From Desulfobulbaceae bacterium (GTDB lineage Bacteria > Bacteroidota > Ignavibacteria > Kapaibacteriales > UBA2268): a stretch of DNA of 64,000 nucleotides. The notes under the pieces were generated by a model that searched no databases, was not told the DNA's origin, and saw only the letters and a program-made list of their open reading frames with translations. Position 1 is the first letter of the stretch. Each line of letters opens with the position of its first letter. Of the stretch, positions 10,528-60,914 are shown in pieces. The stretch is from the NCBI GenBank assembly GCA_018335795.1, contig JAGXRP010000043.1:1-64000 (forward strand), given 5' to 3'. A program made the position numbers and the translations under genes.

Positions 10528-11453
10528 TTGCTTAGAACATTCTTTTTAAAATATTCGACTGTAAGTTGTAGCCCCATTTCCAAATCAATTTCAGGAGTCC
10601 AGCCGAGTTCACGTTTGATTTTGTCGTATGAGCAACAGCTGCGTCTTTGCTCGCCTTGTTTGCCTTCGAGATGTACACGCTCGCATTTGGCATCAGTAAT
10701 GCTTTTAATTTTGTCAAAGACTTCGTTTACGTTTACTTCAATTGCTGTGCAGATGTTGTAAATCCCTTTGTAGGCATCGCTGAGTGCCAACACATTAGCT
10801 TTGACCACATCGCTCACAAAAACGTAATCGCGAGTATTGAGACCATCGCCATAAATATAAGGTTGCTCACCTTGGAGCATCTTCCCGATGAAGATAGCTA
10901 CCACACCTGCTTCACCTTGAGCGTTTTGGCGAGGACCGTAAACATTGGAGTATCTCAAAATAGCAGTTTCAATTTTACGAATTTCGGAATAATAATACAA
11001 ATATTTTTCGTTCGCATATTTGGAAATGCCGTATGGAGAGCATGGCTTGGGCGGGTAATCCTCGCTTGTGGGGAGAATATCGGCTTCGCCGTAAACAGCT
11101 CCACCGGTTGAGGCGAAAATTATCTTTTTCACACCAGTAGCTAAAGCCGCTTCGTAAACATTGATACTGCCGATAATATTCACACCTGCGTCATATGCAG
11201 GGTTGCCAACTGAAACTCGGACATCCATCTGAGCGGCATGGTGATTTACTATATCGAATTGTTCAAGCTCGAATATTCTACGAATTTCGGGTGTACGTAT
11301 GTCAGTTTCGTGAAATTTTGCTTTAGGATTGACATTCTCCAATTTCCCGGTGGAAAGATTATCAAAAATATGTACCTCATGACCCAAAGCAATGTATTCG
11401 TCAGCAATATTAGAAGCTATAAATCCGGCTCCGCCGGTAAGTGCAATTTTCAT
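10524..11453 (-). CDS. NAD-dependent nucleotide-sugar epimerase (GalE-like)
   Basis: Extended short-chain dehydrogenase of 309 residues. The Rossmann motif GGAGFIAS is at residues 7-14, a catalytic-type Ser/Thr region lies in FASTGGAVYG, and the YxxxK pair is in SPYGISKYANEKY. The substrate-side signature RYSNVYGPRQ matches UDP-glucose/UDP-GlcNAc 4-epimerase-like enzymes. It probably interconverts UDP-sugars for surface polysaccharide. The gene lies 11 bp downstream of the nucleoside phosphorylase and overlaps the symporter by ATGA, so all three are one transcript. The exact sugar is uncertain. Confidence 0.9.
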   Translation of the reverse strand: MKIALTGGAGFIASNIADEYIALGHEVHIFDNLSTGKLENVNPKAKFHETDIRTPEIRRIFELEQFDIVNHHAAQMDVRVSVGNPAYDAGVNIIGSINVYEAALATGVKKIIFASTGGAVYGEADILPTSEDYPPKPCSPYGISKYANEKYLYYYSEIRKIETAILRYSNVYGPRQNAQGEAGVVAIFIGKMLQGEQPYIYGDGLNTRDYVFVSDVVKANVLALSDAYKGIYNICTAIEVNVNEVFDKIKSITDAKCERVHLEGKQGEQRRSCCSYDKIKRELGWTPEIDLEMGLQLTVEYFKKNVLSK

Positions 11454-11464
11454 TTTGTTCCTCG

Positions 11465-12766
11465 TTAATTATACCAATCATCAATTATTAATTTTGGTAT
11501 CAAAATCTCATCGTTCTCCTTAATTACGATGCTATATTTCAATAATTCAGCAGCATCGGCAAATTTTGTACTGTCTGACGCATATAATACGGCGATAGTT
11601 TCATCTTTTGCCACTTTGTCGCCAATCTTTTTCCTAAGTTCAATTCCTGCCGCATAGTCAATCTTGTCATAGACGTTCTGTCTGCCGGCTCCGAGCATAA
11701 TTCCGACGATACCGACGTTTATGGTATCAACTTGACTTACATAGCCGTCAACGTCGGATTTAATCTCAAATTTCGGCGTATTAAGAAAATTATTTCTCGA
11801 AATTTCTAAATTCCCGCCTTGCGATTCGACCATTTTCAAGAAATTCTTGTATGCTTGCCCGCTTCTTAGAATTTCCTTATTTCTGGCATGAATATCCTCA
11901 ATATCATCATTTATACCCGAAGCCAAGACCATCGAATCAGCCAATTTCAAGGTCAATTCTTCAACATCCGGGTGAATATTTCCTTTCAATGATTCAATCG
12001 TTTCTTCGATTTCGAGCCAATTCCCAATAGCATTGCCAAGAGGTTGTTCCATCGAACTGAATATAATTCTCATTTTAAGCCCTATGTCCGATGCAACAGC
12101 CAACATTGATTCGGCAAGTTGCTTTGCTTCGGCAATGTCTTGCATGAATGCACCGTTTCCGGTTTTCATGTCAATCACTAAACCATCTAAATCTTCGACT
12201 AACTTCTTGCTCATAATAGATGCAGTAATCAATCCGACAGATTCGACATTACCGGTTATATCTCGGATATGGTACAAAATTCCGTCTGCAGGAGCAATTT
12301 GTGGCGTTTGCGAAGTCATGAAAGCATTGTTTTGGAGTAGTAATTTCCGACATTCATCATAATCAAGTTGCATATTGAATCCTGTAATAGACTCTAATTT
12401 GTCAACTGTTCCGCCTGTATGACCAAGTCCACGACCGGAAATCATCGGTACTGCAATTCCGGCAGACATACAAATTGGCACAAGTAATAATGAAATTTTA
12501 TCACCAACTCCACCGGTTGAGTGCTTATCAATTTTGGGTAATTTTATATCCGAAAAGTCAAATTTAATGCCCGAATCGCGCATTGCGAATGTCATTGCGG
12601 CTGTTTCGGAGCGATTCAATCCATGAATACAAGCAGAGGTCAAAAAGGCTGCCGCCTGAATATCGGAAACATAATTATTTATTAAGCCACGAATAAAGTA
12701 TCTGATTTCCTCTCCGGTCAGACTATATCCCTCTCTTTTCTTTTTCAGTAACTCAGAAATCAACAT
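11465..12766 (-). CDS. Thymidine / pyrimidine-nucleoside phosphorylase
   Basis: Phosphorolyses thymidine (and in the Pdp type also uridine) to base and (deoxy)ribose-1-phosphate in nucleoside salvage. The family signature SGRGLGHTGGTVDKLES and the phosphate-binding KHSTGGVGDKISL are intact. The N-terminal helical domain, the central alpha/beta domain and the C-terminal barrel-sandwich domain (DGYVSQVDTINVGIVGIMLG) are all present at the normal length of 433. DeoA and Pdp cannot be separated by eye. It is the first gene of the long minus-strand run and is divergent from the SpoU methyltransferase, so promoters for both should lie in the 110 bp at 12767-12876. Confidence 0.93.
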   Translation of the reverse strand: MLISELLKKKREGYSLTGEEIRYFIRGLINNYVSDIQAAAFLTSACIHGLNRSETAAMTFAMRDSGIKFDFSDIKLPKIDKHSTGGVGDKISLLLVPICMSAGIAVPMISGRGLGHTGGTVDKLESITGFNMQLDYDECRKLLLQNNAFMTSQTPQIAPADGILYHIRDITGNVESVGLITASIMSKKLVEDLDGLVIDMKTGNGAFMQDIAEAKQLAESMLAVASDIGLKMRIIFSSMEQPLGNAIGNWLEIEETIESLKGNIHPDVEELTLKLADSMVLASGINDDIEDIHARNKEILRSGQAYKNFLKMVESQGGNLEISRNNFLNTPKFEIKSDVDGYVSQVDTINVGIVGIMLGAGRQNVYDKIDYAAGIELRKKIGDKVAKDETIAVLYASDSTKFADAAELLKYSIVIKENDEILIPKLIIDDWYN

Positions 12767-12876
12767 ATTTCAATTTTTTTTTTAGAAATTAAATTTAGTT
12801 TATTGCTATTAGCAATATGTTTTGTAATTTATATTTTGTTAATTTGTATAAATTTAATTTCAAATTTAGTAAAATA

Positions 12877-13647
12877 ATGATGCACTACGCAATGCCAATT
12901 TCGCAAAGACTTAAAAAACTTATTAAGTCATTGCACCAAAAGCCATTTAGAGACCAGAACGGTTTGTTTTTAGTCGAAGGCGAAAAGTTAGCCAACGAAT
13001 TACTTGCAAGCGATTTTCATCCGGAGCTTATTGTTGTCAAAGATGCGCCTTCATCTGACATCATTGATTGCATCGAACAATTCTCCGAAAAAGGTACACC
13101 TATTTATACTGCACCTAAGCATCAATTCGACCAGATTTGCGATACGAAAACGCCGCAAAATGTCTTAGCAGTAGTAAATATTAAGCACAGAGAGGTACTG
13201 AAAAATGAGCCTTTCATAGCTTTGGACGGCATCTCTGACCCGGGCAACGTTGGAACAATCATCAGGACTGCTGATTGGTTTGGGTACAAACAAGTGATAC
13301 TTGGAAAGGATTGTGCTGATATTTTCAATCCCAAAACTGTACGCGGAACTATGGGAGCGATTTTTAAGACACATTTGATTTACGAGCCTGAATTTGCGGA
13401 GTATTTGAAAGAGACTTTCCCGAAACATAAGATATATGGTGCTTCGTCAAAAGCCGAAGCGGCTTTGCAAAGCATCAAACCTAAAAAACTTTACGGTATA
13501 GTCTTGGGAAGCGAATCCCATGGATTAAGCGAACAGACTAAGGCAATGCTTGACGGTGAATTCAAAATTGAAGGAAAAGGGAGTACCGAATCGCTAAATG
13601 TTGCAGTTGCGGCATCCATAGCAATGTACCATCTTTCAAACTTCTAA
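12877..13647 (+). CDS. SpoU (TrmH) family RNA 2'-O-methyltransferase
   Basis: SAM-dependent ribose methyltransferase with a trefoil knot, acting on rRNA or tRNA (RlmB or TsnR-like). The N-terminal substrate-binding domain (residues about 5-95, VEGEKLANELL) is followed by the SPOUT motifs DPGNVGTIIRTADWFG, VLGSESHGLS and ESLNVAVAASIAMYHL. The frame is open from 12817, but the segment before 12877 is AT-rich and not family-like. The tandem ATG at 12877 and the ATG at 12892 (MPISQRLKKL) are the likely starts; I took the first. The RNA target position cannot be assigned from sequence. Confidence 0.9.
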   Translation: MMHYAMPISQRLKKLIKSLHQKPFRDQNGLFLVEGEKLANELLASDFHPELIVVKDAPSSDIIDCIEQFSEKGTPIYTAPKHQFDQICDTKTPQNVLAVVNIKHREVLKNEPFIALDGISDPGNVGTIIRTADWFGYKQVILGKDCADIFNPKTVRGTMGAIFKTHLIYEPEFAEYLKETFPKHKIYGASSKAEAALQSIKPKKLYGIVLGSESHGLSEQTKAMLDGEFKIEGKGSTESLNVAVAASIAMYHLSNF

Positions 13648-29394: not shown

Positions 29395-29427
29395 TTTGAC
29401 AGATACAAATTTATTTTTGTATATTTG
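29395..29427 (+). promoter_or_regulatory. Bacteroidota-type promoter for the B12-sensor operon
   Basis: TTTG (29395-29398) and TATATTTG (29420-29427) are separated by 21 bases and match the -33/-7 consensus TTTG / TAnnTTTG. It would give an untranslated leader of about 225 bases before the cobalamin-sensor gene. I saw no cobalamin-riboswitch B12 box in that leader. Confidence 0.55.
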
Positions 29428-29660: not shown

Positions 29661-30305
29661 ATGAGCACTTTAGTAGAATACGAATCATCAGAAAGATATC
29701 TAAAATCTCTTTTAGAAGGGAGAAGGAGCGAGTGTTCTTCTATCGTAAAAGATTATTTGGCAGAGAAGCACAGTTTCAATGAACTTTATGAAAATGTTCT
29801 TAAAATTGCATTGTATGAAGTTGGTAGATTGTGGGAATATAATAAAATCACAGTAGCTGCAGAGCATTTAGCTACCGCTATAACAGAAGGAATATTAAAC
29901 GAATTGTATCCATATATTATTCCGAACAAATATAACGGCAAAAAAGTTGTATTGACATGTGTAGATAAAGAAGAACATCAAGTAGGTATAAAAATGGTTG
30001 CTGACGTTTTTGAATTGAACAAATGGGAAAGCTTTTTATTAGGAAGAGGATTTCCAACTGTTGAGTTAATAAAATTTATCGATAAAATTAAGCCTGATGT
30101 GCTGGCTATTTCGCTTAGTGTTTATTTTAATTTTGGAAATTTGAAAAGAATGCTAACAGATATAAATTCAATTTACCCAATGCTGCCTATAATAGTTGGT
30201 GGACAAGCTTTATTGCATTTTTCGACAAGTTTTCTTGATGAATTTCCGACAGTTACTTATTTGACAGATTTACAACAACTTGAAGATTTTATTTTAAAAT
30301 TTTAA
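29661..30305 (+). CDS. Stand-alone cobalamin-binding sensor, CarH-like
   Basis: A cytosolic protein of 214 residues made only of the two modules of B12 sensors. Residues 1-85 form a four-helix bundle, and residues 95-214 a Rossmann-like cobalamin-binding domain. Trp58 followed by nine residues and Glu68-His69 matches the W-x9-EH motif of CarH/LitR-type photoreceptors, where Trp caps adenosylcobalamin. EEHQVG (Glu104-His106-Gly109) matches the ExHxxG lower-ligand motif. SLSVYFNFGN and IIVGGQA fit the later nucleotide-tail loops. There is no DNA-binding domain, so output must pass to partners, most likely the kinases that follow. The start MSTLVEYESS is the first Met. The next gene begins 10 bases after the stop. 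Confidence 0.85.
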   Translation: MSTLVEYESSERYLKSLLEGRRSECSSIVKDYLAEKHSFNELYENVLKIALYEVGRLWEYNKITVAAEHLATAITEGILNELYPYIIPNKYNGKKVVLTCVDKEEHQVGIKMVADVFELNKWESFLLGRGFPTVELIKFIDKIKPDVLAISLSVYFNFGNLKRMLTDINSIYPMLPIIVGGQALLHFSTSFLDEFPTVTYLTDLQQLEDFILKF

Positions 30306-30315
30306 TAAAGAAAAA

Positions 30316-30777
30316 ATGAAAAAAGAAAACCTATTAAAAACAGCTAAACAGTTGGTTCAGCCTTCTGTAGAATCAACCAGTGAATTTTCGCAAAAAATAA
30401 ACATGCTGGTTGATAACATGAACAATTACATGTTAAAAAGACCTGACATAAATGATTTGGTTGGTGAAGGAAACCTCGAAATGATGAAAGACAATCATTC
30501 AAATCATGCCCGGTTTATGGAGTCAGTGTTTATTAATTATGAACCCGAAATACTTGTCGATACTGTTTTATGGGTATTCAGGGCATATCGCTCCAGAAAT
30601 TTCAGCTCAACTTACTGGGCTGCCCAACTGAATGCCTGGATGAATATCTACAAAACTGAATTAAGCGAAAAAACCTATACAGAAATTTTGCCGTTTTATA
30701 AATGGTTGCAGGTAAATATTCCTGTTTTTAATGCATTAGCTGAACATGCAATCGATGCTCCGCTCTCCTCTCATTAA
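30316..30777 (+). CDS. Unknown helical protein in the B12-sensor operon
   Basis: I do not recognise this 153-residue protein. It looks all-helical, cytosolic and aromatic-rich in its second half (VDTVLWVFRAYRSRNFSSTY, WAAQLNAWMNIYKTEL, FYKWLQVNIPVFNALAEHAI), with His residues at NHSNHARF that could bind a cofactor. Lying 10 bases after the cobalamin sensor and 16 bases before the PAS-kinase, it is probably a partner of that sensor. It could be a second small sensor or an adaptor between the sensor and the kinase. No catalytic motif is visible. Confidence 0.8.
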   Translation: MKKENLLKTAKQLVQPSVESTSEFSQKINMLVDNMNNYMLKRPDINDLVGEGNLEMMKDNHSNHARFMESVFINYEPEILVDTVLWVFRAYRSRNFSSTYWAAQLNAWMNIYKTELSEKTYTEILPFYKWLQVNIPVFNALAEHAIDAPLSSH

Positions 30778-30793
30778 AAGAATATGTTATCGA

Positions 30794-32056
30794 ATGGATG
30801 ACCAATTTGTAAATATATGGAGTGAAACAGTTCGGCAATTAAAACTGGATTCCCAAAATAGTGCATTGGGATTGTTTGACATAGATGGCAAACTTTTGCA
30901 GGCAAATGAAAGTATGTGCGAATTTCTAGGTACAACCAAAGAGGAACTTCAGCCAAGAAATTTTTTAGTAAATCCTAACTTTAGTAAATTAAAACAACTA
31001 TCCCCAGATAAAAATAAACTCATTTTTGACAGTCTGTTAACCATTGGAAATTATTCAAACAATAGTTTTGTACTTAAAGCTAAAGTGTTTCGTGACGAAG
31101 AAACATTCTTTATCTTTGCAGAAGCTGATGTTATTAATCTATTTGAAGAAAATAAGAAAATGAGCCACCTTAATCAAGAGGTGAGCAATCTTCAGAGACA
31201 GCTGATAAAAGAGAAGTTTAAATTAGAGCGTACATTGATAGACTTGAAAGAAACACAGCAAATGCTTATCCATTCAGAAAAAATGAACGCCATGGGAAAA
31301 TTAGTTGCAGGTGTGGCGCACGAGTTAAATAATCCGATTGCATTTGTTTACGGCAATCTTTTTTCATTAGATACATACTTCAATGACTATAAGAACTTAT
31401 TTCAGGAGGTAGAGAGCAAAATACGGAATGGAATAGACAATAATTTTATTCCTTTAATTGATGAAATAAAGAAAAAGTATGAAATAGATTTCTTGAATGA
31501 GGATGTTCAAGATATAATAAAGGAAACGAAAATTGGGATTGAAAGGGTAAAAGTAATTGTGGAAGATTTGCGCAAATTTTCTCGGCTTGATGAATCCGAA
31601 ATAAAGAAAGTTGATATAATTGATAGTATTAATTCTACTATTTCAATATTAAAATCAGAAATAGCAGATAGAAATTTGAATTTTACATTTGTTTCGCCTG
31701 ATAAACTGTATTTAGAATGTTATCCCGGGCAATTAAATCAGGCAATTTTGAATTTGTTGATTAATGCAATTCAGGCAGTTGATGATAATGGTATAATTAC
31801 TATGTCTCTGATAGAAAACACTGAGAATATACTTATTTCAGTAAAAGATAATGGTATTGGAATCCCTCAGGATATTAAAGACAAAATATTTGACCCTTTT
31901 TTCACAACAAAACCCGTAGGTTCCGGAACAGGTCTTGGATTGAGTATAGCATATAAAATAATTACTGATTTGCATGATGGCTCAATCGATGTTAAATCGA
32001 AAGAGGGGCATGGTGCAGAGTTCATTGTTTCACTACCCAAAAGTTTAAAAATATGA
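30794..32056 (+). CDS. PAS-domain histidine kinase
   Basis: Soluble sensor histidine kinase of 420 residues. Residues about 20-115 are a PAS-like domain (LGLFDIDGKLLQANESMCEF). A coiled coil follows (residues about 118-165), then the dimerisation/phospho-acceptor helix GVAHELNNP with His176. The ATPase has N box NQAILNLLINAIQAV, G1 DNGIGIP, F box FDPFFTTKP and G2 GTGLGLS. There is no membrane segment, so it senses a cytosolic signal, plausibly the cobalamin protein two genes upstream. The frame is open from 30746, overlapping the previous gene; I chose the ATG at 30794 because it gives a clean 16-base spacer. The stop TGA overlaps the next ATG. Confidence 0.93.
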   Translation: MDDQFVNIWSETVRQLKLDSQNSALGLFDIDGKLLQANESMCEFLGTTKEELQPRNFLVNPNFSKLKQLSPDKNKLIFDSLLTIGNYSNNSFVLKAKVFRDEETFFIFAEADVINLFEENKKMSHLNQEVSNLQRQLIKEKFKLERTLIDLKETQQMLIHSEKMNAMGKLVAGVAHELNNPIAFVYGNLFSLDTYFNDYKNLFQEVESKIRNGIDNNFIPLIDEIKKKYEIDFLNEDVQDIIKETKIGIERVKVIVEDLRKFSRLDESEIKKVDIIDSINSTISILKSEIADRNLNFTFVSPDKLYLECYPGQLNQAILNLLINAIQAVDDNGIITMSLIENTENILISVKDNGIGIPQDIKDKIFDPFFTTKPVGSGTGLGLSIAYKIITDLHDGSIDVKSKEGHGAEFIVSLPKSLKI

Positions 32057-33249
32057 TGATAGAACAGGTTGAAAACACTGATTATAATCTTTTAATAGTT
32101 GATGACGAAATTGAAGTTACAAAATCGTTAGCACGCCAATTTAGGAGAAAATATAAAATTCATACTGCTCATAATGTTGACGAGGCAATAGAGGTGATGG
32201 AAAATGAAAATATACAAGTTGTTATTTCAGACCAAAGAATGCCGGGATTAACCGGTGTCGATTTTTTTCACAAAATTAAAGATAGATATCCCGATGCATT
32301 AAAATTAATTTTGACTGGATATTCCGATATTGAAGCAGTAATAGGAGCCATTAACGAAGGTCAGGTTTTCAGGTATATTACTAAACCTTGGAACCCGACC
32401 GAATTGGAAGCGACTATTAAAGAAGCATTTGAAAAGTATGAGTTAATTACAAAGAACAGAAAACTAATGCGCAATTTGTATGATGCTAACCAAAATCTGG
32501 AAGAAAAAGTAAAATTGCGAACTTCAGAACTTGAACAATCCAATGAAAAATTGAAACAGTTAAATATTGAAAAAAATAAATATATCGGAATTGTAGCTCA
32601 TGATTTGAGAGTTCCAATTGGAAATATATTTAGTTTCTCGGAGCTTTTAATTTCAGAATATTCCAATTTATCTGTAGAGGAACATTTAGAGTTTATTTCG
32701 ATTATTAATGAACGGAGTTCCTATTCGTTGAGCTTGATGGAAAGTTTTTTGGATGCATCAAAAATTGAATCAGGAATACTTGAGTTGAATTTTAAAACTT
32801 GGGAATATAATGAACTACTAAAAAACTGTATATCTCAAAATATCATATTTGCAAATAAAAAAATGCAGACCCTGATTTTTGAATCTAATGAAGATAATCA
32901 TTCTGTTTTATGTGATAGAGACAAAATAGAACAGTCTATTAATAACTTAATTAGTAATGCCATAAAATTTTCTTCTTTAGGAAAAAGAATTTGGATAAAA
33001 GTTGAAAAGAAAAACAATCAACTCATTACAAGCATAATTGATGAGGGACAGGGAATACCTGAAGATGAATTAAAATCAATTTTTAAAAGTTATCAGACAA
33101 CTACAGTAAAACCAACAGCTGGGGAAAAATCGACAGGCTTAGGATTGGCAATTGTGAAAAAAATCATTGAAGCCCATAATGGTAAAATATGGGTTGAAAG
33201 TGCAGTTGGAAAGGGTTCGTGTTTTTCCTTTTCAATACCAACAAAATGA
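32053..33249 (+). CDS. Receiver-histidine kinase fusion
   Basis: A protein of 398 residues. Residues 1-130 are a receiver domain with acidic pair Asp17-Asp18, phospho-acceptor Asp60 (VVISDQRMPG), Thr88 and Lys111 (YITKPW). A coiled coil follows (about 132-175), then a histidine-kinase core with His183 in VAHDLRVPIG, N box SINNLISNAI, and G boxes DEGQGIP and STGLGLAIVK. It is likely phosphorylated by the PAS-kinase encoded immediately upstream (ATGA overlap) and passes the signal on. No DNA-binding output lies in the operon, so the final target is elsewhere. Confidence 0.93.
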   Translation: MMIEQVENTDYNLLIVDDEIEVTKSLARQFRRKYKIHTAHNVDEAIEVMENENIQVVISDQRMPGLTGVDFFHKIKDRYPDALKLILTGYSDIEAVIGAINEGQVFRYITKPWNPTELEATIKEAFEKYELITKNRKLMRNLYDANQNLEEKVKLRTSELEQSNEKLKQLNIEKNKYIGIVAHDLRVPIGNIFSFSELLISEYSNLSVEEHLEFISIINERSSYSLSLMESFLDASKIESGILELNFKTWEYNELLKNCISQNIIFANKKMQTLIFESNEDNHSVLCDRDKIEQSINNLISNAIKFSSLGKRIWIKVEKKNNQLITSIIDEGQGIPEDELKSIFKSYQTTTVKPTAGEKSTGLGLAIVKKIIEAHNGKIWVESAVGKGSCFSFSIPTK

Positions 33250-38485: not shown

Positions 38486-39598
38486 TTAACGCCAATCTAC
38501 AAGCATCGAGAATCTCATTGTGTTAGCAAGAGGGTGATTTTCTTCGATTGTGTTGATGAAACTGAAATCAAGTTTGAAAATGTCGTATTTTACGCCGGCA
38601 CCGAAGTTCCAATATTGGCGATTACCTTGTGCAGCAGGTTCGAGAAAATATCCTAATCTGAATGCAACGACTTTTTGGTACCAATACTCAGCACCAAATG
38701 CCCATTCTGCACCTGGATTTTCCCAACCTGAAATCAATGATTTCGGTAGGGCATCAGAGCCGAGACTGTCTCTTTTGACCAACATTTTTGCCATATCGAA
38801 TGCAAAGGTTAATTCGTTGAATTCATCACTATATGCTTTGAATGCAGTTCCAAGTCTCAAAGTTGTCGGTATCGGGTCTGATTCTTTAATGTAGGTGATT
38901 TTTGGTCCAACATTTTTAAGATTCAATCCAAGTGATAATTTGTCTTGGATTCCGAGGAATTCAATATCTTGAGGTTTCCACAGAATACCTAAGTCGAATG
39001 ATGCACTTGTTCCGGTTCCAGCTTCTCCGCCGGTTTGGACAGATGTAGGAGTAAGATTCGAATGGATATAGCGTAGTTGGAAACCAACACCCAAATCAGG
39101 TGCTACTATAGTCCCATATGAAAAGCCGAAAGAAAACTCATTGGAAATGAACTTTCCTAAAGTAGTGCCATCAAAGGCAGTACGAGTAAATTCGCCTAAA
39201 TTCATGAAAATGAAATTAAAGGCAACCGTGCCGTCAAGACTTTCAAAATACTGACCTATAGTACCGTAACTATAAAACAAATCAGCGTTGAATTGTGGCA
39301 ACCATGGCGAAAATGCCAAAGCAACCTGTCTAAATGGAATTAACTCATCGTCGCCAAAATCTGCATCATAATTCTCGAAATAATCTAAGAACCCCAATCC
39401 GGCAGGATTCCAATATATGGCATTGATATCATCTGCTATTGCAGTTCCGGTTTCGCCACGTCCGCTCGAACGTGCATCAGGCGATATTAAAAGGAAAGGA
39501 ACAGCAGAGCCGCCAGCCTGTGAGTACAACTCCATTGGCAGTGTTGTTGACATTATTATAACAGCCATCAAAGCCATTTTGATTGATGATTTCATCAA
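38486..39598 (-). CDS. porV: T9SS outer-membrane protein PorV (LptO)
   Basis: Outer-membrane FadL-like barrel of the type IX secretion system. It shuttles secreted cargo from the translocon to the sortase PorU. It has a signal peptide (residues 1-26) and the family N-terminus GGSAVPFLLISPDARSSGRG with ADDINAIYWNPAGLGF, which is diagnostic of the PorV/PorQ family. The barrel continues to the C-terminus TMRFSMLVDW. The 370-residue length is normal. It lies 52 bp downstream of porU, so the sortase and its shuttle are coexpressed. Confidence 0.93.
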   Translation of the reverse strand: MMKSSIKMALMAVIIMSTTLPMELYSQAGGSAVPFLLISPDARSSGRGETGTAIADDINAIYWNPAGLGFLDYFENYDADFGDDELIPFRQVALAFSPWLPQFNADLFYSYGTIGQYFESLDGTVAFNFIFMNLGEFTRTAFDGTTLGKFISNEFSFGFSYGTIVAPDLGVGFQLRYIHSNLTPTSVQTGGEAGTGTSASFDLGILWKPQDIEFLGIQDKLSLGLNLKNVGPKITYIKESDPIPTTLRLGTAFKAYSDEFNELTFAFDMAKMLVKRDSLGSDALPKSLISGWENPGAEWAFGAEYWYQKVVAFRLGYFLEPAAQGNRQYWNFGAGVKYDIFKLDFSFINTIEENHPLANTMRFSMLVDWR

Positions 39599-39650
39599 AT
39601 TAATCCTCCAAAAACTTTATTCATTATATTTTTTGTTATCATTTCAAATA

Positions 39651-42600
39651 CTAATTTATTTTTACTATTTTAGTTCTTGCAACTGTCGTGCCACCACTTG
39701 AGTTTGGCACTTCAATATGCACAATATATACTCCCTGCGAAACAAGATTTCCGAGATTATCTTTTCCATCCCAGACAATTTCAGATGTATGATACGTATT
39801 GACTGACGTTTTAATGTCTCTAAGAGTAACACCGGTTAAAGAAAATATTTTCATATTTACGTCAAAAGGTGGTGACATATTGTGATTTAAGACAATCGTT
39901 GTTTGTTCGGAAAATGGGTTGGGGTAGTTAAATTTTACATTTCCTACCGAACCGTCACCATTTGGCGAGATATAGAAATTTGTTTCGGCAATAGTGAAAT
40001 TATTGAATACATCCCAAGCTCTGACCTTGACTGTGTGTTTACCCGGAGCTAAACCAAATAAAAATGACTCTATAGAGCCGCTACGTGAATCTGTAAGTGA
40101 TGTTGTAAACCTTTCTGTCAAATCTATCGAATTAGGCGAATCATCTATCCATGCATCAATCTTATGTCCGATACCGATTCCTGTTGAATTTATACCGGAT
40201 TCGTCGAATAAATCAATAATCAATTTTGGATTCGATGTCACTACATCGCCTTTGATAAAATCTCGCGAGTCCAAATACAAATATATTTCGGGTCCTGTAA
40301 TATCATGAACGCTTGTAGGGTCGTAGCCATCTATTCTGAGATTGTGATAAGAACCTTTGGCAAATTCACCCTCTTCCGAATAAGCATAAACAAATAAGCG
40401 CCCGGGATTATCACTAAAACTAATGTCTTTCGGGATTATAAAATCTGCAGTAAATTTTCCGTTTTCAACCTTGTACGAACTCCGATTCAAAGAAGGTCCT
40501 AACTTGGTAAAATAGAACTTGTCGCGTTTGATACCCATAAATTCTTCAACTATTTGGTATTCGGAATCACCGTCACGTAATGTTACTAAAACTGTTCCGT
40601 TAAAGTTCTCATCAACAGATTTGCCATCCGGCAGAAATATTCTTCCTTCTATTGTGATTTTAGATAATGCCGGTATTATTATTGGTTCATCACCGTTTTC
40701 ACTTAACAAAATTCCATTAATTTTATCAATATTAATCTGATTTTCAGGCATCAATAACTTCATAGTCGGGTCGCCAAGTAAGAAATATTTTTTATCGTTT
40801 ACTCCGGTAAAATCTTGTTTCAATTGTCTTACAACATCGCCCAATGTGTTATATCTATTTGTGTTCTGATTACGTGTAAACAAAAACTGATATAATTTGT
40901 ATAATAGGTTGGCATTGAGTTGCGAATAAACAATACGAGTCGAAGTGAAAACTGCAATTGCTGCACCTTTGCGACTTAAGAACATATCTTCGCCACCGCT
41001 TTTAGTTTCGGGATTATCAAATCTTCCAAAATCACATGTAGCAGCCGTTAAAAAGAACATTTTGTCCAAATTAGTCATTTGCGGTATAGTTACGTCTCTA
41101 TCTAAAATCTGTTCGTGACCCCATACCCGAGGGTTACCGTGTCCTATCCAATTCAAGACCAATCCGCCTGTAGTATTGATTTTGGTCAACATATCTTGGT
41201 TAACTTTTGGTTTCAATCTGCCATTTGGAATATTTTCAGTAGGATATTCTACCAAATATATTTTATCGTACTGCATATCTTGAGCATATTTGTTTAGAAC
41301 GTCCATTGTCAAAATTTCAGACTGGTCAGTATGTAAAGTCCCCTCGTAATTTTTCCCCTGTGTTGGACCGTCATCTGCCATGAGTAACAAGTTTGAGCGC
41401 CATTGGTCTAACGAAGAATTATTTTCGTAATGTTTCAATTTATCTACAAAAGCCAAACCGTCTTCATTGTTTTCGGCTGTAATTCTTCCAATGCTCAAAT
41501 CCAACAAATCATCATTGCCGACGATCAAACCATAGAAGTCATCTGACGACCAAGCACTGTGGATTTCACTAAAACTTGACAAATAATAATCGAATGATTG
41601 ATGAGCCGGAATATAATTAATCTTTGATGATGCTATGTTTTTCATATCATAATGACCGTCTCCCCACAACACAAGGTATTGGGGTTTAACTTCCCAATTA
41701 TACCAAGCATAAGCAATGTAATCACGCAATGCAGTTATATCCGGCATTCCACATGAAAATTCATTATAAATATGGTCTGTGCGGACAATATGAATTTTCA
41801 AATCTGATACACTTTCGCGATATTTTTTATATTCTTGTGCAGAAATCATCAAATCAGGATGTGTCAAAACTATTACATCCGCATTTTCTTTGTTGCCACG
41901 TAAATTAATAAGTTCGGCAGGGGATACTTTGGGTGATTTTATTTTAGATGATACGTAGTATTTGCGATACTCCCCCTGCGATAAATCAGTAACAAATTTG
42001 AATATGCCACCGGTGACGGCTGTATTACGAATTATCTTAGGATTAGATGGCGTCGTGACATCAAAACCATATATAGTTTGCCCGGAAAAACCGTTGATTG
42101 TAAATTCACTTATGCCCCTTAAATTCGTGTCTGCTATGAAAGACAACTCATTGTCAATTGCGTAAAAACTCCGGGGATAATGAATCTCAAAATAATCAAA
42201 ATATGCTATTGAGCCTGTTAAATTCGGATTTGTATATTGCAAACTGATTATGCTACGATTGTCGTTTCCGATTTTGGACGCACTCATCGTCAGTTCGGCA
42301 AAATCACGATTTGCCATTGTATAATTTGGTAGTGAACGTAAATTAATGGTACCTAACTTCTCATTGTTGTCAAAAATATTGAAAACACCAGGCGAATCAG
42401 ACTTATGCGCCAATGCAAATCTGTAAAATATATCTCCGCTTTTGTCTAAATTATGTAATAATACCGGATTGAATGGATTTGAAAAATAAGTTCTGCCAAA
42501 CCAAATCCTGCCGGCACCGGGACTATAAGGATTTGTCAAGTCCTCGTCAACAAAAACTCTATGGACATAATTTTTGGGACGATTAACAATCTCACCGCTT

Positions 42601-43676
42601 ATATCAGCCGGAAACTCGGCTCTTTTGCCATTTCTTCCGCCCCAAGTCAACAAATAATAGCTTTCTTTAGAATAAGTATTCTTGTAATGTTGAATTTTTT
42701 TGCCAACTTTTTGAAAAGTGACTGTCGGTGCACCGTAAAAGATAATATAATCCAACTTTCCGTCGGATTTGTTTACAACTTGAATTGCTTGTTCGTCCAT
42801 ATCATTGAGCAAGGCATCGGAAACAAGTTCAGAAAGCTCTTTGCCACCTTTGCTAAATATTTTCAGAGTATTGACATCAATGTTGGCTACGTTCACACCA
42901 GATGCGGATACTTGGTTAGCATCAATTCTATAAATACCTTCTTCAGACACAGATACTTTGAGCCATGAACCACTTGATATTAGATTCAAATCTTTTATGA
43001 TTTCACCATTCATCAATCTCGGTTCATCCTTAAATGTAGTTTCGGGTTTGATGCCCCAATTAACAGCTTGACTGTAGTTTATCGCATTTGCAGCATTAGA
43101 CTTAATCATGGTATTGCCCGATTTCGTATAATCAAAATTTATTTTGACTGTAATGGAATCAAGCATATATAAAATTCCGTCTTCATATTTATAGGGGTGG
43201 ATTTGCAATTGTGCCAAGTGGTGGTCGGAGGAAATACCTAAGTATTCCAACTTATAAAATTTTTCGGGGAATTGATAACTCGAATAAAATGTAGGTTCGA
43301 TACTAAGTTCAGAGAAATCGTTGAGTTTGTCGAAATTCATGTCAAAAGGGATGATGTCGTATCCGCGAATAGGGCTGTAGTGCAAATCAAGTAATTCTGA
43401 ACTGAATCCGTCCGGTGACGGTACAATGAATTTCACGGGTAAATATTGGTCAAGTGGTTGGCCAAATTGATTTTCTTTCAAAATTGTAGATTCAAATTCA
43501 GGGTATAAGTAAACATCGCCCGAATTGCTCGTTACGAATTTGGAATTTGTAATAGCAGGGATATACTTGACGACAACTGAATTGTTGTGATAGGAGACTT
43601 CTTGAGCATAGGACGTCATTGTGACATGAAGCAATATGATTACGAAGACGCAGTAGAGAAATTTATTTACTACCAT
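39651..43676 (-). CDS. porU: T9SS sortase PorU
   Basis: Gingipain-type (C25) cysteine peptidase of 1341 residues that cleaves the C-terminal signal of T9SS cargo and attaches it to lipopolysaccharide. It has a signal peptide (VIILLHVTMTSYAQ) and an N-terminal region. The caspase-like domain carries the His in NWIGHGNPRVWG (near residue 843) and the Cys in FFLTAATCDFGRFDN (near 880). C-terminal Ig-like domains and its own sorting domain follow (FNYPNPFSEQTT, DGKDNLGNLVSQGVYIVHI). It is flanked by the subtilase upstream and porV downstream. Confidence 0.94.
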   Translation of the reverse strand: MVVNKFLYCVFVIILLHVTMTSYAQEVSYHNNSVVVKYIPAITNSKFVTSNSGDVYLYPEFESTILKENQFGQPLDQYLPVKFIVPSPDGFSSELLDLHYSPIRGYDIIPFDMNFDKLNDFSELSIEPTFYSSYQFPEKFYKLEYLGISSDHHLAQLQIHPYKYEDGILYMLDSITVKINFDYTKSGNTMIKSNAANAINYSQAVNWGIKPETTFKDEPRLMNGEIIKDLNLISSGSWLKVSVSEEGIYRIDANQVSASGVNVANIDVNTLKIFSKGGKELSELVSDALLNDMDEQAIQVVNKSDGKLDYIIFYGAPTVTFQKVGKKIQHYKNTYSKESYYLLTWGGRNGKRAEFPADISGEIVNRPKNYVHRVFVDEDLTNPYSPGAGRIWFGRTYFSNPFNPVLLHNLDKSGDIFYRFALAHKSDSPGVFNIFDNNEKLGTINLRSLPNYTMANRDFAELTMSASKIGNDNRSIISLQYTNPNLTGSIAYFDYFEIHYPRSFYAIDNELSFIADTNLRGISEFTINGFSGQTIYGFDVTTPSNPKIIRNTAVTGGIFKFVTDLSQGEYRKYYVSSKIKSPKVSPAELINLRGNKENADVIVLTHPDLMISAQEYKKYRESVSDLKIHIVRTDHIYNEFSCGMPDITALRDYIAYAWYNWEVKPQYLVLWGDGHYDMKNIASSKINYIPAHQSFDYYLSSFSEIHSAWSSDDFYGLIVGNDDLLDLSIGRITAENNEDGLAFVDKLKHYENNSSLDQWRSNLLLMADDGPTQGKNYEGTLHTDQSEILTMDVLNKYAQDMQYDKIYLVEYPTENIPNGRLKPKVNQDMLTKINTTGGLVLNWIGHGNPRVWGHEQILDRDVTIPQMTNLDKMFFLTAATCDFGRFDNPETKSGGEDMFLSRKGAAIAVFTSTRIVYSQLNANLLYKLYQFLFTRNQNTNRYNTLGDVVRQLKQDFTGVNDKKYFLLGDPTMKLLMPENQINIDKINGILLSENGDEPIIIPALSKITIEGRIFLPDGKSVDENFNGTVLVTLRDGDSEYQIVEEFMGIKRDKFYFTKLGPSLNRSSYKVENGKFTADFIIPKDISFSDNPGRLFVYAYSEEGEFAKGSYHNLRIDGYDPTSVHDITGPEIYLYLDSRDFIKGDVVTSNPKLIIDLFDESGINSTGIGIGHKIDAWIDDSPNSIDLTERFTTSLTDSRSGSIESFLFGLAPGKHTVKVRAWDVFNNFTIAETNFYISPNGDGSVGNVKFNYPNPFSEQTTIVLNHNMSPPFDVNMKIFSLTGVTLRDIKTSVNTYHTSEIVWDGKDNLGNLVSQGVYIVHIEVPNSSGGTTVARTKIVKIN

Positions 43677-43932
43677 GATTATACCCTAAGTTAGTTTGCA
43701 CAACATTGCATTAACAATTGCAACACATTTTTGTTACAATTTAGGAATTTTTTTCCAAACTAAAGCAGTAAATATAATCTATAGTATCCTTCGTTTTTCT
43801 GTAATAGACGAAACTAATAAAAAATCATGTAAAGAAAAAATATTTTTCAAAGTTTTTTTAAAAATTTTCAAAATATTTTAATGTTGACGTTTCAATCCAT
43901 AGTTGAGTTTTTATCTGAGCTCCCTAATAATC

Positions 43933-43955
43933 TACCCCACAGCTGCTGTAGGGTA
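43933..43955. terminator. Stem-loop between subtilase and porU
   Basis: TACCC-C-ACAGC / GCTGT-A-GGGTA forms a near-perfect stem in the 312-bp gap. It has no clear U-run on the minus strand, so it may be a weak terminator or RNA stabiliser. The rest of the gap is AT-rich with no gene. Confidence 0.45.
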
Positions 43956-43988
43956 AATTGATCAGGATTTTGAACTTATACTACTACT

Positions 43989-46900
43989 TTATTTTTTTAC
44001 AAATGCTTTTGTAACTATTACATCATTTTTCATTCTTAGAAGAATGTAATAAATGCCCGTAGTCATAGATGATACATTGATTTCAAGCCGATTTGATTGC
44101 AATCCGGTTATGTTGCTTATCATTACTTTTCCGCTAATGTCAACGATTTGCACTTCTGTCAAATTTGATAAATTATGAGTCAGAGTTAATTGCTCGTCAG
44201 TTGGGTTTGGCGTAATGCTTAGTTCGTAATTTGCATAATCTTCTACTGAAGATGTGGTCGAACCAATCCCGACAAGCGGAACGTCAAGAGTTGCAGGGTC
44301 AGAATCGGAAATAATTCTCAATGTAGCTGTTCTCGTTTGGTAAACTTTAGGTTGGAATCTTACTGCTATTCCAACTGTTTCACCCGGCGAAAGTTCTTCG
44401 GGGCGGTTAAATACGAGTCGGAATTCGTCGGAATCCACACCTTCATCGGGAATAATTTCAAAGGAAGTGAAATTTAATCTCACATTGCCTTCATTTCGCA
44501 AATCAACACGTTTAATAACATTTGTTGATGTGTCCACTGAACCAAAATTTACAGGCGATTCATTCAGAACAGCAATTTTCTTTTCAATATTTGTCGGAGT
44601 TACTTCAAAGTCAAGGAATCCAATAGAAATCCGTCCGGCACTCCAAAGTCTCACAGATGCGCCATCGCCATAACCGGTTCCGACTTGCAAATTCGTTGAT
44701 TGTTTTGTAAGCTCGGGTTTGAGTGTCATTCCCATGTCATCAGAAGTGAAGACCGACCCGTTAAATGAAGTTATAGCAAATTTGTCTGCTGCTCTAATTG
44801 CATATACTGATATTGGCATGATTGAATTTGAAGTGAAATTCTGAACTCTCTTAGTCCAAGTCTTACCACCGTCAGTTGTTGTAGCGAGAAATTGGTCGCC
44901 TGCCTGACCGGAAGCTACTTCCTGATAGACAACAAATCCATTGTTATCATCTAAGAAGTCCATTTTTGAGACTGTACCACCGACATGTAATACGGATACA
45001 TCCCAAGATTGACCGCGATTTGTTGAGCGGAATACTCTACCTTTAGAAGTCCCAAACCATATGCTGTTTCCGTGATAAGCCACAGATTCTACATAGCCTG
45101 ATTCACCTGTCTCAGGGTTCGGTATATTGGTTAATTTTGTCCAATTAGCTCCTCCATTGCTTGTAGAGGCAATTCCCCACGAAGAACCGATTGCGTCGCC
45201 AAGGAAAATTGCATTTTGGGAGTCATAAAAATGAATTGAATTGATAAATGGTGTGATGGTGTTTACAAGTGTTGTACTCCAATTTGCTCCACCATCAGTT
45301 GTTTTGAATACTTTTGCCGCACCATTAGTCGGACCACTACCGGCGTATGCCACATCAGCACTCAAACCATAAACACAATAAACGGGTTCGGAAGTAAAAA
45401 CGTTGAACCGACTGGAACCTCCAACTTTGTATAAGATACTTCCTTGACCTTCGGCTACACCGACAGACCAAAATACATTTTTACTTGGAGTATGGGCACC
45501 GTACCATGTTATCAAAAAAGTATGGCTTAATGCTTGAGTTAACGTGAATTTGTTGCTGCTTTGAATTTTGACAGGGATGGATAACATTTGATAATCAACA
45601 TAATCGCCGCTTTGGTAAGTGACCAACAAGTCCACATAACCATCAAACCATGGATTATTTTCCTTTAACTGCAATTCTACAATTATTTCTTTAGTTTCAA
45701 GCTGTCCGAAATCTCCAGCTTCTATCTCGTTGTTTTTCAAAGTTGCAATGTCTCTGTATGGTGATAATATAATTTTAGAATTTGGTGCAGGAGAGAGGTA
45801 GTTAGTTATGTTGAGTTTTACTTGAGTCATTTCATAATTAACTATTGCTCCAATATTGCCGTTTACAGTCATTGCGTCGCAATAGAAACCCGGGATTTTT
45901 AATTCGGGAAAATCCGGATTATTGTATTTCACCGCTTTTTCGGCATTTGCTCTACCATAAATCAAAGGCCTTGAAGCCGGATTTTGAGTTGCCAATACAT
46001 TGTCTGAGGTGCTTCTTATCTGACGTGCAATTTGCATGGGCGACCATGTTGGATGAATTGATTTGACCAATGCTGCAAGCCCCGCAACGATAGGACTCGA
46101 AAATGATGTACCGTCAGCTCGAGTATAACCGGTACCTATTGTTGTTGATAATATTTGAGAACCCGGTGCAAAAACGTTGACATTATGTCCGTAATTACTG
46201 AAACCGGACACTCTATCGTTTGCATCTGTCGCACCTACCGATAAGACATTTATGTAGTTACAGGGATAATAGTTAAAAACATCATTATTTGAGTTGTCAT
46301 TGCCTGAAGAAGCGACTACTAATGCCCCCATAGCAGTTGCTTGGTTGATTACATCTTGTTCGGCACCACTTCTACCCGGACCGCCCCAGCTACAATTGAT
46401 TATATCTGCACCCGAACGAGCTGCATATAAAATTGCTTCGTAACCTCTTAAAATACCACGTACAGAAGCATTATCTGAAGCACATTTTAGGGACATGATT
46501 TTTGCAGAATATCCAAGTGATGCAATTCCAATCGAATTATTTGTAACTGCTGATGCACATCCTGCAGACAAAGTTCCGTGATTATTGTTTGGGTTACGGG
46601 GATTATTATTTTCTCTGAATAAGCCTGAATAATACTCTTGAGTGGTTATATTACCAACAAAATCCCATCCACGAATATCATCTATTTTTCCGTTTCCGTC
46701 ATCATCTATTCCGTTATCCTCTATTTCACTACTATTTATCCAAATATTGCCGGCTAAATCAGGATGTTGCCAATCACTTCCTGAATCAACTATTGCTATT
46801 ACTATTTGGTCAGAACCTTTCGTTACTTCCCACGCTTCAGTTGCTTTCATCAATGTCAAAGCGTATTGTTCGCCCAATCTTGGGTCATCCGGTGTGAATC

Positions 46901-47357
46901 CGTTTGAATATCGAATATAGATAGGTGAGGCATATTCAACATTCGGATTTTGTTCGATTAACTCACAAATATCAAAGGGGTTAACGGTTCCTGAATAATG
47001 TATTTCATAGATTCGAGATACTCCATACATATCAGGAGCTAACAAATCGCCGTTCACATATTTTGCAAATGGAGCATCAATTTGGAAATCACCGACCAAT
47101 TGCATAACATCAAAGCCCAGTATCGATGCCATATCTTTTTGCATGGTTATGTCGGAGAGTTGGTATTTTATTTTAACATGAAGCGAGTAAGGCATGTAAT
47201 GTTTTTGGTCAATGCTTTTAGGGTTTGAAGATAATTCACTTTTTTGAACTTCATCTCCGGTCTTATAGAAATTAGGTATGGTTGCAGAATATGATACAAC
47301 ACTAAAAGCCCAAAACAAAGCAATAACTTTAATAAATATTTTTGTAGCTAACGACAT
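43989..47357 (-). CDS. Secreted subtilisin-like protease, T9SS cargo
   Basis: S8 serine peptidase of about 1122 residues. A signal peptide and prodomain are followed by the catalytic triad: Asp in AIVDSGSDWQHPDL (near 190), His in NNHGTLSAGC (near 260) and Ser in GTSFSSPIVAG (near 419). Then come a beta-propeller-like region of about 320 residues with Asp-box motifs (TTDGGANWS, STNRGQSWD, TTDGGKTWT), an Ig-like HYDIN-type domain (PVNFGSVDTS) and a type A T9SS sorting domain (SITPNPTDEQLTLTHNL ... GIYYILLR). It is therefore exported and anchored by PorU. The start at 47357 (MSLATKIF) is preferred over 47372. Confidence 0.9.
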   Translation of the reverse strand: MSLATKIFIKVIALFWAFSVVSYSATIPNFYKTGDEVQKSELSSNPKSIDQKHYMPYSLHVKIKYQLSDITMQKDMASILGFDVMQLVGDFQIDAPFAKYVNGDLLAPDMYGVSRIYEIHYSGTVNPFDICELIEQNPNVEYASPIYIRYSNGFTPDDPRLGEQYALTLMKATEAWEVTKGSDQIVIAIVDSGSDWQHPDLAGNIWINSSEIEDNGIDDDGNGKIDDIRGWDFVGNITTQEYYSGLFRENNNPRNPNNNHGTLSAGCASAVTNNSIGIASLGYSAKIMSLKCASDNASVRGILRGYEAILYAARSGADIINCSWGGPGRSGAEQDVINQATAMGALVVASSGNDNSNNDVFNYYPCNYINVLSVGATDANDRVSGFSNYGHNVNVFAPGSQILSTTIGTGYTRADGTSFSSPIVAGLAALVKSIHPTWSPMQIARQIRSTSDNVLATQNPASRPLIYGRANAEKAVKYNNPDFPELKIPGFYCDAMTVNGNIGAIVNYEMTQVKLNITNYLSPAPNSKIILSPYRDIATLKNNEIEAGDFGQLETKEIIVELQLKENNPWFDGYVDLLVTYQSGDYVDYQMLSIPVKIQSSNKFTLTQALSHTFLITWYGAHTPSKNVFWSVGVAEGQGSILYKVGGSSRFNVFTSEPVYCVYGLSADVAYAGSGPTNGAAKVFKTTDGGANWSTTLVNTITPFINSIHFYDSQNAIFLGDAIGSSWGIASTSNGGANWTKLTNIPNPETGESGYVESVAYHGNSIWFGTSKGRVFRSTNRGQSWDVSVLHVGGTVSKMDFLDDNNGFVVYQEVASGQAGDQFLATTTDGGKTWTKRVQNFTSNSIMPISVYAIRAADKFAITSFNGSVFTSDDMGMTLKPELTKQSTNLQVGTGYGDGASVRLWSAGRISIGFLDFEVTPTNIEKKIAVLNESPVNFGSVDTSTNVIKRVDLRNEGNVRLNFTSFEIIPDEGVDSDEFRLVFNRPEELSPGETVGIAVRFQPKVYQTRTATLRIISDSDPATLDVPLVGIGSTTSSVEDYANYELSITPNPTDEQLTLTHNLSNLTEVQIVDISGKVMISNITGLQSNRLEINVSSMTTGIYYILLRMKNDVIVTKAFVKK

Positions 47358-47418
47358 TAAAAAGTCTCCCATTATTTGTTTTAATACAACTTACAATAAT
47401 ACATTAAATTCCAAAAAG

Positions 47419-59024: not shown

Positions 59025-60914
59025 CTAATTCTCCGGATAAACCAATGTATCGCTATTAAGTATAAAAATCTGATAGCCCTGCCCGGGGAGCATATTGCCT
59101 ATCATATTGATTTCAAATGCGGGGTAGTAAACATTGCCGAAATTGTCTTTTGCGATTATAAGATTGTCGTCGTCAGTAAGCGATGCCAATGCAAGTTCAA
59201 TATCCATGGGGCTATTCCGCAGATATGCTATCATATTCCAGCCTGCAGATAGGTTTATTGTAGTACTTTCGGGAATGACTTGTACTCCCAAGATTGAGAG
59301 CGTTTCAGGTTGACTCATAAATACCTGATATCCCTGAGTTATATCCCAATCTCCAATGTCGTTTATACCAAATTCCGGAAAATAAATCTGCCCCGCATTA
59401 TTTTTGACAATCACAGTATTATCTGAAATTTCAGTAAATATGGTTTCGAGTCCAAATACGTCAGGAATAACGTATGTAGAGATCATGTTCCAACCTTGTG
59501 AAAGCAGGATTTCGTTTGTTACAAGCGTTATAGTTACTTGCTCAATCAAGGTATCTTTCACACTTGGAATGCCGCGTGTCAGAATGAGCCGAACGTCAAA
59601 TGTCCCGCCCTTTTTGTATACATGAGTTGGATTTGGCAAAGTTGAACTATTCCCGTCTCCGAAATTCCATTGATATTGATATCCGCTAATTTCCGGAATA
59701 TCAAATGTTACTATATTTTTATCAATTTCAAACGTAAAACTATTTCGGAAATCAAATGTAATTGGCAAACTCTGATAACCGGAACTGTCAATTGCATGAA
59801 TGAAAATTGTACGATTCCCGATAATATTATCCACATCAATATCCTGTTCGATATTTAATTCATAAACGAGACTATCATGATAATAAATATAGTTTTTATC
59901 GCTTTCTCCATCGAACCAATACTTTATTCCTTTCACATAATTAGATGAGCCTACCAAATTTGTAAGAAATGAGCTGTTGAAGTAATCCGTTATCGGAATA
60001 CTCCAATTATCGTCGTCTGCCCGGACACGATAATTGAACAAATGAATTCCATTTGGTAAATTGTCAATATCAATCAATTCCTCAAATTCAATTGTATCAG
60101 TAGCCGAAACTTCAATGTAATGACGGTTCTCGAAATCTGAATTGAACCAGTATTCATATCCTACCATATCATAATCCGAATTGCCCTCAAATTCAAATGG
60201 AATTATGAAATATGTTGTTTCAGCAACGCTCCAAGTGCTGTCCGACGTCTTGAATCTTTTCGATACTAAGTGCATACCTTGGGGCAAATGTCCAACTTCC
60301 AATTCGAAATCCAATTCTAATGTATCAGTCTCAGCGACTTCAGTATATTGGCGATTAGCAAAATCTGAATTGAACCAGAATTCATAACCTACAATTTGAT
60401 AATCAACAGTAAAGTCTAATTGAATTGGGATTACGAAATAATTGGTTTCGGGTACGCTCCACAAGCTATCCGAGCTGCGATATCGAATATTAATGAAATT
60501 CAATCCATGTGTCAATTGGCTGATATCGAACTCCAAATCCAATTCGAGTGTGTCTTCTTCGGATGTTTGAATATATTGTCTGTTTGCAAAATTTTCATTG
60601 AACCAATATTCGTAGCCAACTACTTTCGAATTTTCATAATCCGGTATATCGTGTGGTATGAGAAAATATGAAGCTTCCGGAGCACTGTATTTACCCGATT
60701 CATCTTCAAACATGATATGAAGGAAATGAAATCCCGGCGGCAAATCGGAAATTGGCAGCTCGAAATCAAGTTCCAAAGTATCAGTTGGCGTAACTTCAAC
60801 GACTTCTTTATCCGCATAATTGTTATTGAACCAATAATGATACTTCACTATTTGGTTAGCCGCAAGTGTAGAGGGCAAAATTGCCAATAAAAACAGTAAA
60901 ACAAACTGTTTCAT
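59025..60914 (-). CDS. Secreted repeat protein with WFN repeats and PKD domain
   Basis: A protein of 629 residues. The signal peptide (VLLFLLAILPSTLA) is followed by four repeats of about 72 residues (YEYWFNxxFANRxYIE ... DTLELDxE ... LPxGxHxxxxRxxxSDxxWSVPxTxYFxIP), and a fifth weaker one. A PKD domain follows (QYQWNFGDGNSST, near 405), then two C-terminal modules beginning LSQGWNMIS and LSAGWNMIA that are about 80 residues each. There is no T9SS sorting domain. The role is probably extracellular adhesion or structure. It lies 23 bp after the beta-helix gene in the same operon. Confidence 0.85.
   Translation of the reverse strand: MKQFVLLFLLAILPSTLAANQIVKYHYWFNNNYADKEVVEVTPTDTLELDFELPISDLPPGFHFLHIMFEDESGKYSAPEASYFLIPHDIPDYENSKVVGYEYWFNENFANRQYIQTSEEDTLELDLEFDISQLTHGLNFINIRYRSSDSLWSVPETNYFVIPIQLDFTVDYQIVGYEFWFNSDFANRQYTEVAETDTLELDFELEVGHLPQGMHLVSKRFKTSDSTWSVAETTYFIIPFEFEGNSDYDMVGYEYWFNSDFENRHYIEVSATDTIEFEELIDIDNLPNGIHLFNYRVRADDDNWSIPITDYFNSSFLTNLVGSSNYVKGIKYWFDGESDKNYIYYHDSLVYELNIEQDIDVDNIIGNRTIFIHAIDSSGYQSLPITFDFRNSFTFEIDKNIVTFDIPEISGYQYQWNFGDGNSSTLPNPTHVYKKGGTFDVRLILTRGIPSVKDTLIEQVTITLVTNEILLSQGWNMISTYVIPDVFGLETIFTEISDNTVIVKNNAGQIYFPEFGINDIGDWDITQGYQVFMSQPETLSILGVQVIPESTTINLSAGWNMIAYLRNSPMDIELALASLTDDDNLIIAKDNFGNVYYPAFEINMIGNMLPGQGYQIFILNSDTLVYPEN

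Follow-up and report, generated by a model that had tools for sequence, protein, structure and literature searches.

We found that a four-gene operon in a bacterial genome assigned to the Bacteroidota probably encodes a photocobilin-like sensor hub that is split into separate proteins and wired to a phosphorelay. The operon occupies positions 29661–33249 of the window, which is the whole stretch of 64,000 nucleotides (nt) analysed here, from contig JAGXRP010000043.1 of assembly GCA_018335795.1 (Desulfobulbaceae bacterium; Kapaibacteriales in GTDB). We put the probability of this reading at about 60%. The product of the second gene, P2, has a predicted globin fold and its homologues are fused to a vitamin B12-binding domain of the same type as the first product, P1. 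A check of the open reading frames (ORFs) placed all four on the plus strand: P1 (29661–30305), a free-standing cobalamin-binding protein of 214 residues with a helical cap and a Rossmann domain; P2 (30316–30777), a stand-alone protein of 153 residues; P3 (30794–32056), with a PAS-like domain, a coiled coil and a histidine kinase; and P4 (32053–33249), a receiver joined to a kinase. P1 and P2 are 10 nt apart, P2 and the P3 ATG at 30794 are 16 nt apart, and P3 and P4 overlap in ATGA, so the close packing and ATGA coupling described in an earlier note on this DNA were borne out. The P3 frame is open from an ATG at 30746 as well, a start that would overlap P2; the ATG at 30794 was favoured because homologous kinases begin level with it.

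The only Pfam domains of P1 were PF02607 (52.4 bits) and PF02310 (47.3 bits), each exceeding its cut-off; a MerR-type DNA-binding domain was not found in its 214 residues. The protein carries G55-x-x-W58 followed after nine residues by E68-H69, and E104-x-H106-x-x-G109, and the residues W58, E68, H69, E104, H106 and G109 were invariant in all ten orthologues, which come from two phyla. These results upheld the description of P1 in the earlier note as a free-standing, CarH-like cobalamin sensor with W58-x9-E68-H69 and ExHxxG but without a DNA-binding domain. The nearest solved relatives of P1, however, are photocobilins, well ahead of CarH. When the P1 family profile was compared with all PDB sequences, the photocobilins 8J2X/8J2W (E 1.2e-24) and 8J2Y (5.7e-21) were matched together with CtMerR (8JBS, 4e-23), followed by MetH and then CarH (1.4e-9). 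Given also the predicted globin fold of P2 and the fused homologues described below, we regard the operon as a split relative of photocobilins and P1 not as a CarH minus its DNA-binding domain.

The alignment of P1 with the photocobilin SasPcob is gapless around the cap motif and equates W58 with Trp61, E68/H69 with Glu71/His72 and H106 with His108 (numbering of PMC10979010). In SasPcob, Trp61 stacks on the adenosyl ribose, Glu71/His72 lie at the dimer interface and His108 is the lower ligand (PMC10979010). The published light signature (the SignatureFinder set) consists of GxxW, EH, GxxH and GxxxP (PMC11796333). Three of these four elements are found in P1 (G55xxW58, E68H69 and G128xxxP132), and GxxH is replaced by K103xxH106. 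Furthermore, the residue after W58, Glu59, stands at the place of the bis-His residue His132 of TtCarH and is Glu in all orthologues too, so a CarH-type light adduct is not expected in P1, for which a water-ligated light state as in photocobilins is the more probable. P1 would likely sense light by means of adenosylcobalamin. P1 also shows weak NCBIfam similarity to the MtaC and MtbC families, as would a corrinoid methyl carrier (MtaC/MttC-like) that adjoins the kinases by accident. We find this hardly credible, for the NCBIfam scores are far below the cut-offs, the adenosyl-holding W and EH are present, there is no methyltransferase partner and the linkage to PAS effectors is conserved.

P2 retrieved nothing relevant from Pfam, NCBIfam or the PDB sequences, either as a single sequence or as profiles. 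AlphaFold predicted a helical globin fold with a predicted local distance difference test score (pLDDT) of 88 and a predicted template modelling score (pTM) of 0.82. Structural comparison of this model by VIA-align gave the bilin-binding smURFP at Z 13.4, globin-coupled sensors at about 13, phycobiliproteins at 11–12 and the globin domain of SasPcob at 10.9 (root-mean-square deviation 2.8 over 117 residues, model 17–141 on 8J2W 227–345). Helical folds readily reach middling Z values; the globin call was made because many globin-superfamily rows and the genomic linkage were taken together, and on these grounds P2 is identified as a predicted globin of a type that accompanies B12 domains. The earlier note had P2 as an unknown helical protein acting as adaptor or co-sensor; helical it is, and the word unknown can be replaced by this identification. 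Through a tblastn match that was weak (28%, E 5e-11), P2 was connected with an Ilyobacter protein of 373 residues. Its N-terminal, P2-like part is fused to a B12 domain that contains LWEKGQISVAQEHLAT and ELHEVG, and a GGDEF gene comes next. Structural ranges and profile alignment equated W86 of P2 with Trp296 of SasPcob and N60 with Asp270. N60, F67, W86, Y91, F96 and Y100 were the same in all 21 core members of the family, among which no conserved Cys was found.

The order B12–globin–PAS-kinase was found again in the sister species (L015, which has the receiver-kinase too, at 11927–13189), in G020, G101 and G328 and, in permuted form, in G122; outside the phylum, two Desulfamplus genomes have it too. 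The four-gene arrangement is therefore not due to chance. The earlier note had asked whether the order recurs, which it does across families and in a second phylum, and this conservation also bears out the wiring of a B12 sensor to histidine kinases that it had proposed. A first scan of genome contigs with a single sequence found three Desulfamplus loci only. Among 395 Desulfobacterota genomes, 17 gave a globin match; one of these, G763, was subsequently dismissed, and two, G789 and G491, are divergent. Relatives of P2 were not found among viral contigs, and a second search of plasmids returned Ilyobacter alone. In Ilyobacter and at eight Desulfobacterota loci a single chain contains both domains, always with G-x-x-W-x9-EH. 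Wherever the contig continues at a core locus, the globin has a B12 domain with this motif next to it or fused to it (L072 is fragmented and the motif region is absent from its sequence). The third gene at these loci encodes the same PAS-like domain, judged by eye for L063 and L067, followed by a histidine kinase, by GGDEF or by a tail that is either short or Cys-rich. All three parts (B12, globin and PAS-effector) are held by 22 loci, a few of them fragmentary, in two or more phyla. Among relatives with fused hubs, the exchange of PAS-GGDEF, histidine kinase and PAS with a Cys-rich tail fits a common sensor with interchangeable outputs. The split globins (12 members) form one side of a tree branch with a support of 99/100.

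Pfam found a weak PAS, HisKA and HATPase in P3, and a receiver (Response_reg), HisKA and HATPase_c in P4, whose C-terminal part is a kinase. The H-boxes read VAHELNNP and VAHDLRVP, and the receiver Asp of P4 lies in SDQRMPG, so that the pair contains a HisKA–HATPase kinase and a receiver with a phospho-Asp, as in two-component systems. A profile of the P3 PAS domain (A7) matched 5 of 395 genomes of the window's phylum, the same five that hold the globin. The profile had been built including globin genomes, and three of the five had been found through the globin beforehand; the informative part of this co-occurrence is therefore that the other 390 genomes gave no match. Judged from these sequences, the PAS domain is the third fixed part of the B12–globin set.

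Whether P2 carries a pigment was approached through cofactor supply. The host genome encodes a PduO cobalamin adenosyltransferase and the terminal oxidase subunit COX1, and adenosylcobalamin in the cell is plausible on this account. Heme oxygenase (PF01126) was not found in this genome (G000), and none exceeded the cut-off in any of the 22 core globin genomes, with a single sub-threshold match (15 bits) in G809. The anaerobic bilin maker of the HutW type (TIGR04107) was above cut-off in none of 19 genomes tested, where only sub-cut-off background was seen. Self-made biliverdin by the known routes is not plausible, because neither enzyme scored above its cut-off. Clear heme oxygenases were present in two genomes, G015 and G763, both without a genuine core globin. 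These findings suggest that P2 might be a chromophore-free scaffold that links P1 to the kinase, as in the non-heme globins of the RsbR type, an explanation compatible with light sensing by P1 to which we give a little less than an even chance. It accords with an invariant Asn in place of the bilin-holding Asp and with the lack of a conserved Cys; in AbDPcob, where the Asp is His, biliverdin binding is reduced (PMC10979010). On the other side, the pocket-region aromatics W86, F67, Y91, F96 and Y100 do not vary in 21 of 21 members, as though a ligand or interface were conserved. Asn too can hydrogen-bond a pyrrole, and bilins could be scavenged.

Another possibility was that P2 binds heme as a gas or redox sensor of the globin-coupled type, with the B12 protein secondary, since the VIA-align scores of such sensors are level with that of smURFP. 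The predicted F helix (residues 77–93) contains no proximal His, several members (L033, L058, L059 and L060) do not keep the E-helix residues H61/H64, and every P2 homologue whose contig permits the test is accompanied by a B12 domain with W-x9-EH. This makes a heme sensor very unlikely. We tentatively propose, at odds somewhat short of even, that P2 belongs to a widespread clade of B12-partnered globins without self-made biliverdin, which would bind another tetrapyrrole or none. Together with the B12 protein and the dedicated PAS domain, such globins would make up a sensor of three parts with exchangeable outputs, in bacteria that are non-phototrophic and in part sulfate-reducing.

Starting from the B12 domain with its adenosyl-pocket residues, the globin fold, the strict globin–B12–PAS linkage and the kinase domains, all taken from sequence or prediction, we infer ligand binding, light as the signal, docking and the direction of signalling as follows. 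P1 would bind adenosylcobalamin with H106 as lower ligand, and in the dark W58 and E68/H69 would hold the adenosyl group at the interface of a head-to-tail P1 dimer. P2, as a non-heme globin, may pack on the B12 protein at the corrin edge, in the manner of the fused photocobilin globin, and tune or cap P1 with or without a tetrapyrrole of its own. The PAS domain of P3 would be the dedicated receiver on which the hub docks. Green light would cleave the Co–C bond, or adenosylcobalamin would be lost, and release of the adenosyl group would break or reshape the P1 dimer and change P3 autophosphorylation, with phosphate moving from P3 to the P4 receiver and on to a further partner.

The same proteins could instead report the supply of adenosylcobalamin or corrinoid, if the kinase receives one signal from P1 with bound adenosylcobalamin and another from apo P1, photolysis being a side effect. 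CarH-type dimerisation depends on adenosylcobalamin itself, and no feature of P1 separates a sensor of B12 level from a sensor of light. Several of the globin genomes are Desulfamplus, from habitats that are not known to be lit, and PduO lets the genome make adenosylcobalamin from corrinoid. Against supply sensing stand the adenosyl-pocket set, which matches that of proven photoactive proteins (PMC10979010, PMC11796333), and the globin partner of a bilin-binding type, which suggests an optical function. A B12 riboswitch was searched for upstream of the operon and none was found, nor does any further B12-supply gene mark the 64-kb window. Supply sensing is thus rather unlikely, although far from negligible.

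Some observations weigh against a light-driven split hub. Of the five P2 models, four were poor and a single one was confident. The AlphaFold model of P1 was good in its Rossmann half only and poor over residues 1–88, which include the cap, with a mean pLDDT of 34–54 per ten residues over residues 1–90. The comparison of the P2 family with canonical photoglobins of Streptomyces and Azospirillum by hhalign was sub-significant (E 0.013–0.027, probability about 1%); the alignments were full-length and colinear and reversed controls gave E 0.18–0.33, which is suggestive of a shared family but is not proof. G015 has the B12 protein and the PAS-kinase, and the globin was not found in this genome (85% complete), so the globin is possibly non-essential. 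In addition, no gene in the window names a light-regulated output.

Photocobilins (SasPcob, 8J2W/8J2X; AbDPcob, 8J2Y; PMC10979010), a class defined also by binding of biliverdin and adenosylcobalamin and by Co–C cleavage in light, resemble the operon in W-x9-EH and E/DxH within a cap and Rossmann B12 domain, in the globin-fold partner predicted here, in Trp296 of SasPcob, kept as W86, and in an enzyme or regulator as output. They differ in being one polypeptide, whereas B12 and globin ORFs are separate in the window and throughout the split group. Asp270, which holds the bilin pyrroles in SasPcob, is Asn60 here and Asn in all 21 core members, and AbDPcob lacks the Asp too; here the output is a PAS-kinase and receiver-kinase, heme oxygenase was not found in the genome and the globin profile match is non-significant. 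We do not file the operon as a photocobilin, because its architecture is not single-chain and the bilin Asp is missing. CarH and LitR share the GxxW, EH and GxxxP elements and the lower-ligand His, but have the MerR DNA-binding domain that is absent here, the bis-His histidine in place of Glu59 and Gly in place of K103 in GxxH. Schneider et al. 2022 (doi 10.1016/j.csbj.2021.12.022) reportedly predicted photoglobin–B12 light-sensing hubs widely tied to signal-transduction domains. Photoglobins are reported to have a CxQD-type motif, where M-x-x-N is found here. Split globin/B12 pairs are already known in genomes with heme oxygenase (PMC10151467). Among them BBAG-2 and Myxococcales globins likewise have a stand-alone globin gene adjoining that of a B12-binding protein, and BBAG-2 has an RGMC motif, binds biliverdin and comes from a genome with pre-PcyA and heme oxygenase (PMC10151467), whereas the window has RNFSS at the same place, no heme oxygenase was found and a PAS effector completes the set.

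Fused B12–globin receptors (PMC10979010) and split pairs with heme oxygenase (PMC10151467) are thus known. New against the literature examined are the identification of an unannotated globin clade, its strict PAS partner, the kinase operon, the Asp-to-Asn change and heme oxygenase not being found. An unannotated protein family gains a name, and the parts of the B12–globin hub are seen to occur as separable proteins that have a fixed PAS receiver, which is handy for reconstitution and optogenetics. It is puzzling that bilin-type globins with conserved pocket residues persist where heme oxygenase was not found. The B12-photoreceptor outputs described in the literature examined are DNA binding and diguanylate cyclase, and a histidine kinase output established by experiment was not found there. 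If light does drive the operon, vitamin B12 would here control a two-component system.

Further features were noted at the operon and its relatives. About 230 nt upstream of P1, TTTG-N21-TATATTTG (29395–29427, plus strand) could be a Bacteroidota-type promoter, and the block around it is partly conserved with the G001 locus. In L015 the PAS-kinase gene (10621–11927) is frameshifted inside the PAS domain, through sequencing error or decay. The PAS partner in L067 and L092 ends in a Cys-rich ICxHCK...HGIC..C, a third kind of output. L013 has no adjacent globin, and a fused globin–B12 gene lies elsewhere in the same genome. A weak globin match beside the heme oxygenase of G763 was rejected, as it spans 47 residues with a stop and the surrounding ORFs gave no match; the heme oxygenase itself (L093, 3261–4538) has a C-terminal extension that looks globin- or phycobilin-like by eye, a possible heme oxygenase–globin fusion.

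Two relatives of the host, G020 (L008) and G001 (L009), also encode separate proteins of the MerR plus B12 type that have every element of the CarH signature, GxxH among them; at the threshold applied, the window's own genome gave none. In Azospirillum and Skermanella (L079, L080), an N-terminal globin-like domain with C-x-E-D is fused to a W-x9-EH B12 domain, and the Azospirillum gene is followed by a kinase whose coiled coil resembles the P3 family. Photocobilin genes on Streptomyces plasmids (L076, L077, L082 and L075) lie between PP2C phosphatase and STAS genes, and one adjoins gas vesicle genes. Elsewhere in the window, type IX secretion genes, which suggest a member of the Bacteroidota, lie at 38486–47372 and encode PorV, a peptidase of family C25 and a subtilase that bears a Por secretion tail, and a tandem pair of 164-nt repeats, 73% alike, occupies 60082–60473 within an ORF on the minus strand (59025–60914).

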